Of a stretch of DNA of 64,000 bases, positions 2,983 to 3,980 are shown in pieces. The notes under the pieces were generated by a model. It was not told where the DNA came from. It ran no database searches and was given only the letters and a program-made list of their open reading frames with translations. The position numbers and the translations under genes are program-made. Source of the stretch: Seohaeicola saemankumensis (lineage in GTDB: Bacteria > Pseudomonadota > Alphaproteobacteria > Rhodobacterales > Rhodobacteraceae); the NCBI RefSeq assembly GCF_021021435.1, contig NZ_JAINWI010000012.1, forward strand, positions 186,001-250,000, read 5' to 3'. How positions within the stretch are numbered: the stretch's first letter is position 1; the number at the start of each line of letters is the position of its first letter.

Positions 2983-3233
2983 GCCAATTCCTCCATCATC
3001 TGTGCTGTCATAGGTGGCAGTTTTTAAAAAATGCACAAGTAGCAGAAGGCTTGCCGCGTCAAAGCGCCTGTTTTGAAAGCTTTTTGCCTAAAAATTAGGT
3101 CAGCTTGTCATATGCATTTGCTGCATAGCAGCATTGCAACGGTAGGGTATTGTGCACACGCAGCATCGGGTTATTTTGAGATCAACAGAGCGGGAACGAC
3201 GACGACAAACCGCAAAATCGAAAGTGAACGAAC

Positions 3234-3470
3234 ATGGCTTATACATCAGATCTCCGCCTTGCACAGCCGCGCGCCGCACAGACAGGCATTGCCAGCAAAC
3301 TGCAGACGCTTACGGCGGACCTGTCGCAGCGCTACGCCCGCTACCGGGTGTTCCGCGATACCGTCAACGATCTGGCAATCCTGCCCGACATCGTTTTGGC
3401 CGATATGGGCCTGAACCGGTCACAGATTCGCTCGGTCGCCTACGAATACGCCTACGGCGTTAAAAAGTAA
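3234..3470 (+). CDS. DUF1127 small basic protein, CcaF1-like, heading the sRNA cluster
   Basis: The 78-residue protein carries an Arg-rich DUF1127 domain at about 33-75 (RYRVFRDTVNDLAILPD, then LADMGLNRSQIRSVAYE). DUF1127 proteins in alphaproteobacteria are short RNA-binding proteins. In Rhodobacter sphaeroides the homologue RSP_6037 (CcaF1) is cotranscribed with the CcsR RNAs and affects their maturation. Here the stop at 3470 lies only 10 bp before the first CcsR-like hairpin, with no terminator between, so gene and RNAs very likely share one transcript. The 250 bp upstream is AT-rich; I could not pick a convincing promoter. Equivalence to CcaF1 is inferred from domain and arrangement, not from an alignment. 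Confidence 0.9.
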   Translation: MAYTSDLRLAQPRAAQTGIASKLQTLTADLSQRYARYRVFRDTVNDLAILPDIVLADMGLNRSQIRSVAYEYAYGVKK

Positions 3471-3479
3471 CTACGGGAT

Positions 3480-3556
3480 CAGATGGCCCTCTCCTCCTCC
3501 CTGGGTCATCTGTGAACTTGCGGCGGCATCCTCTCCTCCTCCCTGGATGTCGCCGC
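3480..3556 (+). ncRNA. CcsR-like sRNA unit 1 (hairpins 1 and 2)
   Basis: Hairpin 1 (3480-3512) has a 10-bp stem with one G-U pair, CAGATG opposite CATCTG. Hairpin 2 (3520-3556) has a 12-bp GC-rich stem beginning GCGGCGGCATCC. Both display the 13-nt TCTCCTCCTCCCT loop and are joined by 7 nt. The two-hairpin unit matches the described CcsR architecture (each of the four R. sphaeroides RNAs has two stem-loops with CCUCCUCCC). The ends of the mature RNA are inferred. Confidence 0.85.
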
Positions 3557-3570
3557 ACCTTATAGGAATA

Positions 3571-3650
3571 CGAAAGACTTCCTCCTCCTCCCTGAGGTCT
3601 TTCGTTGACAAGAGCGGCGGCACCTTCTCCTCCTCCCTGGGTGCCGCCGT
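3571..3650 (+). ncRNA. CcsR-like sRNA unit 2 (hairpins 3 and 4)
   Basis: Hairpin 3 (3571-3604) has an AU-rich stem, CGAAAGAC opposite GTCTTTCG, and a 12-nt loop. Hairpin 4 (3614-3650) has a GC stem starting GCGGCGGCACC and a 13-nt loop. A 9-nt linker joins them, and 14 nt (AU-rich, TATAGGAATA) separate the unit from unit 1, a plausible processing site. Confidence 0.85.
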
Positions 3651-3665
3651 ATCTGCCAAAGAATT

Positions 3666-3743
3666 GTGAAGGCCTCTCTCCTCCTCCCTGAGGTTATTCA
3701 CATACAAGAGTGTCGCCCCTCTCCTCCTCCCTGGGTGCGGACA
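3666..3743 (+). ncRNA. CcsR-like sRNA unit 3 (hairpins 5 and 6)
   Basis: Hairpin 5 (3666-3701) pairs GTGAA with TTCAC and GGCCTC with GAGGTT, with A3696 bulged. Hairpin 6 (3711-3743) pairs TGTC with GACA, GC with GC and CCC with GGG, with two single-base bulges. Both carry the 13-nt loop. It is the least perfect unit, but the loop is fully conserved. Confidence 0.83.
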
Positions 3744-3756
3744 TATCTTGGACCAT

Positions 3757-3835
3757 ACGCGGGCCCTCCTCCTCCTCCCTGAGGGCCGCGTTGAAAAACG
3801 GCGGCACCCTCTCCTCCTCCCTGGGTGCCGTCGTT
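3757..3835 (+). ncRNA. CcsR-like sRNA unit 4 (hairpins 7 and 8)
   Basis: Hairpin 7 (3757-3791) has a GC-rich stem, GCGGGCCCTC opposite GAGGGCCGC, with one bulged G and a 12-nt loop. Hairpin 8 (3797-3835) has a 13-bp stem around GGCGGCACCC and a 13-nt loop. The linker is 5 nt. Hairpin 8 is followed by TTATTCCCTCCC rather than a T-run, so the 3' end may be set by processing. Confidence 0.83.
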
Positions 3836-3980
3836 ATTCCCTCCCTTCCCACAATCCTGTGCACTTAAATTTGCCGGCTTCATCGGTCGCGTCGCGGTCC
3901 GGTCGGGTTTTTCTGGCGCCGATAGTTAGCTACTTAGCAAAGTATATTGACAGAACTGGCCTGCGGTATTAGCAAGCCAT

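Follow-up and report, generated by a model that had tools for sequence, protein, structure and literature searches.

In a 64-kb window of the Seohaeicola saemankumensis genome (the whole stretch of 64,000 nucleotides that was analysed), a short DUF1127 gene is followed by an array of eight RNA hairpins whose loops display the motif CCUCCUCCC, and this locus is an ordinary, well-conserved Rhodobacteraceae ccaF1-CcsR operon of the known CcsR/cuckoo (CIN1) kind. As far as our searches go, the new part consists of two features that had been missed in the first-pass annotation of this DNA. The array promoter carries a strongly conserved two-part operator that resembles that of PhaR, the sensor of polyhydroxybutyrate (PHB), and the mRNA of phasin bears a strongly conserved hairpin of the array type in its 3' untranslated region (UTR); both features appear to be new. 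Judging from sequence, we think it reasonably probable that this stress-type cluster of anti-Shine-Dalgarno (anti-SD) small RNAs (sRNAs) is also under the control of PhaR.

The operator is made of two elements on the forward strand. The first, op1 (TGCTGCATAGCAGCA, positions 3119 to 3133), is a PhaR-type palindrome that includes CTGC-ATA-GCAG; it lies within a block, CATATGCATTTGCTGCAT[A/G]GCAGCATTGC, that upstream alignment found to be common to 7/7 genomes of the genus, and was followed through the family by a mismatch search. The second, op2 (TGTGCACACGCAGCA, 3151 to 3165), was identified by the genus alignment and the family search, is located 17 bp downstream of op1 and overlaps the putative -35 element and the spacer of an RpoH-like promoter. 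In this promoter, the putative -35 is TTGTGC (3150 to 3155, forward strand), whose function is suggested by its conservation in the promoter rows, while the putative -10 is GTTATTTT (3170 to 3177, forward strand), assigned by its position and by what we take to be the RpoH consensus; relatives often have CYTATCTT or CCCATNTT in its place. A sigma-70 promoter was also considered and dropped by eye, the best conserved elements being TTGTGC and CYYATNTT.

The grammar of the operator can be written as op1 TGCYGCN3GCRGCA, a gap of 16-17 bp and op2 TGTGCAN2YGCAGCA, with the palindromes 31-32 bp apart. It was evaluated on 60 array loci from 60 genera, taken from 110 array-positive genomes, of which 47 have a DUF1127 gene next to them on the upstream side; the other 13, which lack such a match in the fetched stretch, were excluded from the 47. 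Since 30 of the 60 loci were used as the loop search delivered them and 30 were chosen among array genomes in which the exact op1 word is absent (G009 deliberately, as it is PhaR-less), the set leans against op1. Op1 and op2 together were found with at most three mismatches in 38/47 loci (47 genera), as compared with 9-12 in the reversed-sequence control, and the count rises to 39/47 when G152, cut short in the set, is read from L104, where it shows no mismatch to op1 and op2. Op2 taken alone is within one mismatch of TGTGCANNYGCAGCA in 41/47 loci, or in 42 if the L104 reading of G152 is used. Exact copies of the op1 word, TGCTGCATRGCAGCA, number 61 and are spread over 56 of 150 Rhodobacteraceae genomes; 43 of these copies are accompanied by op2 within two mismatches and by a DUF1127 gene and/or loops downstream. 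A scan of the named genomes by pattern returned at least 118 matches; among those listed, 68 combine a DUF1127 gene with two or more loops (the genera represented include Ruegeria, Tabrizicola, Paracoccus, Sulfitobacter and Roseovarius), 14 have DUF1127 only, 2 loops only and 34 neither, some of the latter being incomplete at the edge of the stretch and several coming from unrelated bacteria.

PhaR is probably the factor that binds this operator. The PhaR site of R. sphaeroides, as given in PMC12542648, is CTGCNNNGCAG with the core CTGC-N3-GCAG, and CTGCATAGCAG at 3121-3131 fits it, as looked for in a promoter of the PhaR regulon. Two sites of the same grammar are present in the phasin promoters of 47/47 loci (reversed control, 1/47), and in the window genome TGCYGCN3GCRGCA occurs at 16 places, six of them with a centre made of A/T only: the phasin gene is preceded by two of these six, the array operon and a second DUF1127 gene by one each, and the last two lie elsewhere. 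PhaR itself is found in 145 of the 150 Rhodobacteraceae genomes. Among the five without it, two (G009 and G140) have arrays, and neither of these gave a phasin match. Both have lost op2, being the two worst of the 47 at 8 mismatches (the next have 7); with regard to op1, G140 has a degenerate copy and G009 a partly degenerate one. Overall, op2 is kept in 42/45 array genomes with PhaR (one read from L104) versus 0/2 without it, a comparison that includes two PhaR losses only; were the five op2 losses distributed at random, the chance that both PhaR-less genomes are among them would be 10/1081, with kinship ignored.

A possible but less probable reading is that the locus is the plain published CcsR/cuckoo operon, controlled by RpoHI/RpoHII stress factors only, in which the palindromes are part of the sigma promoter or serve another activator and PhaR plays no part. 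Indeed, an RpoHI/RpoHII promoter is described for the published operon in PMC10253847, and the overlap of op2 with the -35 and the spacer means that promoter function could explain part of its conservation. Op1, however, sits well upstream of the -35 and retains a palindrome that shares both its half-sites and its minor variants (TTC, GCG) with 94 phasin sites, and the loss of op2 in both PhaR-less array genomes also speaks against this reading. Moreover, a sigma factor is not expected to require the GCAGCA half of op2, as this half falls within the spacer.

Several observations count against PhaR and its operator as the explanation. The -10 of the window is a weak match to RpoH, although TTGTGC is conserved; 18 of the 61 exact op1 words are found elsewhere, without op2, DUF1127 or loops, and 7 of the 43 op1 and op2 sites have loops and no DUF1127 match. 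The comparison of genomes without PhaR rests on two of them, one of which, G009, keeps an op1 remnant with 2 mismatches, and PhaR is present yet there is no good op1 in G102 and G076 and no op2 in G141, G056 and G013. Finally, op1 shares its half-sites with the phasin sites but differs from them at the centre, which is A-T-R in op1 (position 9: A20, G18, T3 of 41) and R-N-Y in the phasin sites (T66, C28 of 94), so that position 9 is R and not Y; the 41 op1 sites were picked with the A-T-R word itself, although a centre-free search mostly gives A-T-R too. Since the centres differ, op1 is not simply of the phasin type, and another factor of similar specificity may bind it.

Similar elements are also present elsewhere in the window genome. 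The second DUF1127 gene (L069, G000:C2 around 169660; Pfam 24.4 bits against a cut-off of 23.3) has upstream TGCCGCATTGCAGCATTG and a CCTATCTT-like -10, resembling the ccaF1 promoter, and CCTCCTCCC, the word found in the array loops, is absent from its 3-kb locus. Further PhaR-type palindromes occur at L072 (G000:C2 282039) and L079 (G000:C20 28186), one in the vicinity of a ruvC-like gene, the other flanked by genes that resemble hisD and UPF0262 (gene names assigned by eye).

An sRNA promoter with a putative PhaR site also exists in Sinorhizobium meliloti, where it drives MmgR, a member of a separate sRNA family. According to PMC12542648, PhaR (AniA) represses MmgR, which in turn acts on PHB and phasin. 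The situation in the window differs in that the sRNAs are a CcsR array and the phasin mRNA bears a hairpin. In the searched literature naming both CcsR and CcaF1, of which partial text is available, neither PhaR nor phasin appears, with Reinkensmeier 2015, Billenkamp 2015 and Gruetzner 2021 falling outside the search and possibly mentioning them; in the same texts polyhydroxybutyrate is mentioned in another context only, and PhaR and DUF1127 are both named in PMC9230146, in separate contexts.

The second new feature came from the loop sequence. The 4.09-Mb genome contains 9 copies of the 13-nt loop word CTCCTCCTCCCTG, 8 of which belong to the array (reversed-pattern control, 0), and the sole copy outside begins about 22 nt past the stop codon of the phasin gene adjoining phaR (L001; the phasin Pfam score is 24.8, just below the cut-off of 24.9, and PhaR scores 96 bits). 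Across the family, a hairpin with a CCTCC loop (CCUCC in RNA) is located 3' of the phasin stop codon in 33/47 loci, 13 with CCTCCTCC, as compared with 1.7 expected from shuffles; the same type of hairpin is found at 3/202 other open reading frame (ORF) ends of the phasin loci, spurious frames included, and at 0/47 on their opposite strand. Two of the 33 were flagged as terminator-like, and without those the count is 31/47. The set comprises 47 of 51 phasin matches, with a contig-end fragment (L101) left out and three second matches without a locus, and the genus of the window contributes 5 of the 47 loci. In the phasin 3' UTR of L099 (G021), several CCTCCC loops in a row, and not one, can be seen by eye. 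It might be argued that the phasin hairpin is a mere transcript-stability or RNase-stop element that shares its loop with the array by chance or through C-rich composition, since it is single, is placed between stop codon and terminator and is missing, by the criterion used, from 14/47 loci. The excess over other ORF ends and over shuffles, and the fact that in the window genome the phasin UTR is the only place outside the array with the full 13-nt loop word, make this explanation rather unlikely.

The array itself starts directly after the DUF1127 gene, as the first-pass annotation had stated. The gene, CcaF1-like and 78 aa long, occupies 3234 to 3470 on the forward strand and matches PF06568 at 33 bits against a cut-off of 23.3; the first stem begins at about 3480, some 9 nt past its end, and a DUF1127 homologue is upstream in 7/7 genus genomes. 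The hairpins, all on the forward strand and each supported by loop search, consensus fold and covariation, form four units: hairpins 1 (3480 to 3512) and 2 (3519 to 3557), 3 (3570 to 3605) and 4 (3611 to 3654), 5 (3665 to 3702) and 6 (3710 to 3744), and 7 (3757 to 3791) and 8 (3796 to 3837), the second hairpins of units 1 and 2 having a GCGGCGGC stem. CCTCCTCCC has 8 copies on the forward strand of the 64-kb window (3493, 3535, 3584, 3629, 3680, 3723, 3771 and 3813) and none on the reverse strand, and all 8 are within loops of 12-13 nt closed by stems of 10-15 pairs in the consensus structure, which bears out the eight near-invariant loops of the earlier description; CCUCCUCCC is in the hairpin loop of 8/8 hairpins between 3480 and 3837. 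The array is found in 7/7 examined genomes of the genus, six of them with eight hairpins. The seventh, G003, has nine full loops and one hairpin with a shortened loop (by eye), that is, ten stem-loops and one extra two-hairpin unit, and the gain of a whole unit supports the two-hairpin unit. The proposed four two-hairpin units thus hold, given also the alternating linkers and the alignment of the Rfam CcsR1 model to four units. With regard to the linkers, which had been given as 7, 9, 9, 5 nt alternating with 14, 15, 13 nt, the short/long alternation was recovered while the exact lengths vary with the point at which stems are cut off, the consensus fold of six genus arrays giving 6, 12, 5, 10, 7, 12 and 4 nt in the window genome. 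Since a T-rich tract comes next in genus relatives (by eye), hairpin 8 may double as terminator.

It had also been proposed that the stems differ freely and that selection is on the loop, a view that does not agree with the conservation of the stems. In the alignment of six genus arrays (99 pairs in the structure, 500 shuffles), 97.6% of 587 cells are paired and both-sided changes occur at 8/99 pairs, against a shuffled mean of 3.4 and with 8 reached in 0/500 shuffles, while structures slid along the alignment pair in only 38-48% of cells. The covariation signal has its counterweights, in that further pair types number 32, with a shuffle mean of 34.2 and 478/500 shuffles reaching 32, and the structure slid by +2 retains 5 both-sided pairs, though only 47.9% of its cells pair. 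Furthermore, 62/99 stem pairs are invariant within the genus, and over 47 Rhodobacteraceae arrays a GCGGCG-type word is found in 117/146 hairpins behind a short linker (the second of a pair) versus 30/157 others (the first). This count considers five related words at any position in the hairpin and linkers split into a short and a long class, and its 303 hairpins include many near repeats and so are not independent. As the stems are constrained, hairpin 2 of each pair above all, selection is not confined to the loop, and the pattern suggests that the stem of the second hairpin, and not the loop alone, is recognised or preserved by something.

Membership in the CcsR/cuckoo kind is indicated by architecture. 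In R. sphaeroides, ccaF1 is followed by CcsR1-4 (PMC10253847), the same arrangement as in the window, with a DUF1127 gene, four two-hairpin units with CCUCCUCCC loops and a promoter that is putatively RpoH-like in the window; PMC3927594 describes the two-hairpin unit and the cuckoo/CIN1 hairpin modules of alphaproteobacteria, variable in number and with anti-SD loops, and PMC10253847 links a short DUF1127 protein to these RNAs under the name CIN1. For the R. sphaeroides CcsR RNAs, RNase E processing, Hfq binding and stress induction are published. The Rfam CcsR1 model (RF02791) aligns to units 1-4 with 43.0, 46.5, 21.2 and 44.9 bits (E 5e-9, 5e-10, 0.015 and 1.5e-9), and this alignment and the shared architecture (PMC10253847, PMC3927594) uphold the match to the CcsR1-4/CcaF1 locus that had been put forward earlier. 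The covariance search suggested at that time was successful in aligning all four units, but none of them, the best having 46.5 bits, reaches the gathering score of 65.3, which is a difference from CcsR1; at gathering level Rfam gives only two tRNAs in the window and no CcsR match. The cut-off of RF02791 nevertheless fails to delimit the group, because even in a genus whose best unit has 84-106 bits (5 genomes), and which shares the op1/op2 block with the window locus, it passes only one unit per array. The likeness to cuckoo/CIN1 (SmelA075, SmelA099; ar14, RF02344) lies in the CCUCCUCCC anti-SD hairpin modules and the linked DUF1127 gene, with ar14 matching at 50.6 bits, below its 58.8; the rhizobial members, however, have three or four hairpins (PMC3927594), whereas the window has tandem two-hairpin units. 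Sub-threshold Rfam matches to 6C, Scr3202 and other families were discounted as likely look-alikes with C-rich loops.

The array is widespread in the family. At least one spaced loop pair is present in 110/150 Rhodobacteraceae genomes (a few pairs may be due to chance), and exact loop pairs occur in 12/192 genomes sampled over the class, three of them in Rhodobacteraceae, the window genome included. No DUF1127-array layout was seen by eye in L377 and L378, two of the nine non-family genomes with a loop pair, the other seven being represented by matched strings only. The largest array has 26 CCTCCTCCC loops (G152; L043/L104), and by eye it contains near-identical copies of a three-hairpin block, an extreme expansion. 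Loop pairs on contigs C16, C17, C62 and C63 of G040 suggest dispersed copies of the array, and in L102, L126, L130, L134, L141, L147 and L150 the op1 and op2 promoter is followed by loops without a DUF1127 match, so the array seems to be protein-less in some genera.

With regard to targets, the loop is complementary to SD purine tracts as had been claimed, being the perfect complement of GGGAGGAGGAGA before an ORF of the window genome (L352, a match of 12 nt). The pattern GGGAGGAG-N4-10-ATG has 20 matches in the genome against 1 in the reversed control; two of the 20 come from hairpins read on the reverse strand, three open very short frames, and the remaining 15 are at the head of ORFs with 100 aa or more. 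The candidates include three acyl-CoA dehydrogenases, an acyl-CoA ligase, a PaaI thioesterase, a dienoyl-CoA-reductase-like SDR and AtuA, in addition to an E1 alpha subunit (L365) of pyruvate dehydrogenase (PDH) type, an FAA hydrolase, two TRAP binding proteins, a periplasmic binding protein, a 2Fe-2S subunit, a GMC oxidoreductase and one unknown, with annotations that are often below the cut-off of the named subfamily. These ORFs are in keeping with sRNAs that slow carbon intake and the supply of acyl-CoA, with the reservation, which weakens the case, that they come from one SD pattern without a background set and are candidates only. Alternatively, the loops could work as sponges or decoys for purine-rich RNA, or as platforms for proteins (CcaF1, RNase E, Hfq), with array length setting capacity, and not as anti-SD repressors of chosen mRNAs. 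Array size does vary up to 26 hairpins while the loop is nearly fixed, and the stem of the second hairpin is conserved in sequence and pairing, suggesting stem recognition; the perfect complementarity of the loops to SD-like tracts such as that at L352 argues in the other direction, and we regard the sponge or platform role as improbable.

In the mechanism that we propose, with anti-SD repression and PhaR control, a single transcript would encode the DUF1127 RNA-binding protein and then four two-hairpin sRNAs, which would be cut from its 3' UTR. On the basis of the sequence and of published relatives, we infer that the two CCUCCUCCC loops of each sRNA may pair with purine-rich SD sequences and lower translation, the candidate targets being genes of acyl-CoA catabolism and substrate uptake. 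The RpoH-like promoter would be kept in check through its two spaced palindromes, most likely bound by PhaR as a repressor that senses PHB granules; with a build-up of PHB, that is, of surplus acetyl-CoA, the granules would titrate PhaR away, which would release the operon along with phasin. The same sRNAs would then respond both to stress and to an excess of carbon, and the phasin mRNA, through the hairpin located after its stop codon and ahead of the terminator, may be a second, PHB-linked source of the loop.

Collectively, the Rhodobacteraceae CcsR array may be part of a PHB-sensing circuit in which PhaR represses the operon via two operators, the phasin mRNA releases a CcsR-like single-hairpin RNA, and both sources of CCUCC loops rise with PHB and lower the translation of uptake and acyl-CoA/PDH-type genes, a physiological proposal that we hold to be evenly balanced between right and wrong. 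If true, the stress sRNAs would double as a carbon-overflow brake, a PHB-sensor-like operator across many genera and a phasin-borne loop would explain the link of CcsR to acetyl-CoA supply, and array length, with up to 26 hairpins, would become a question of dosage.
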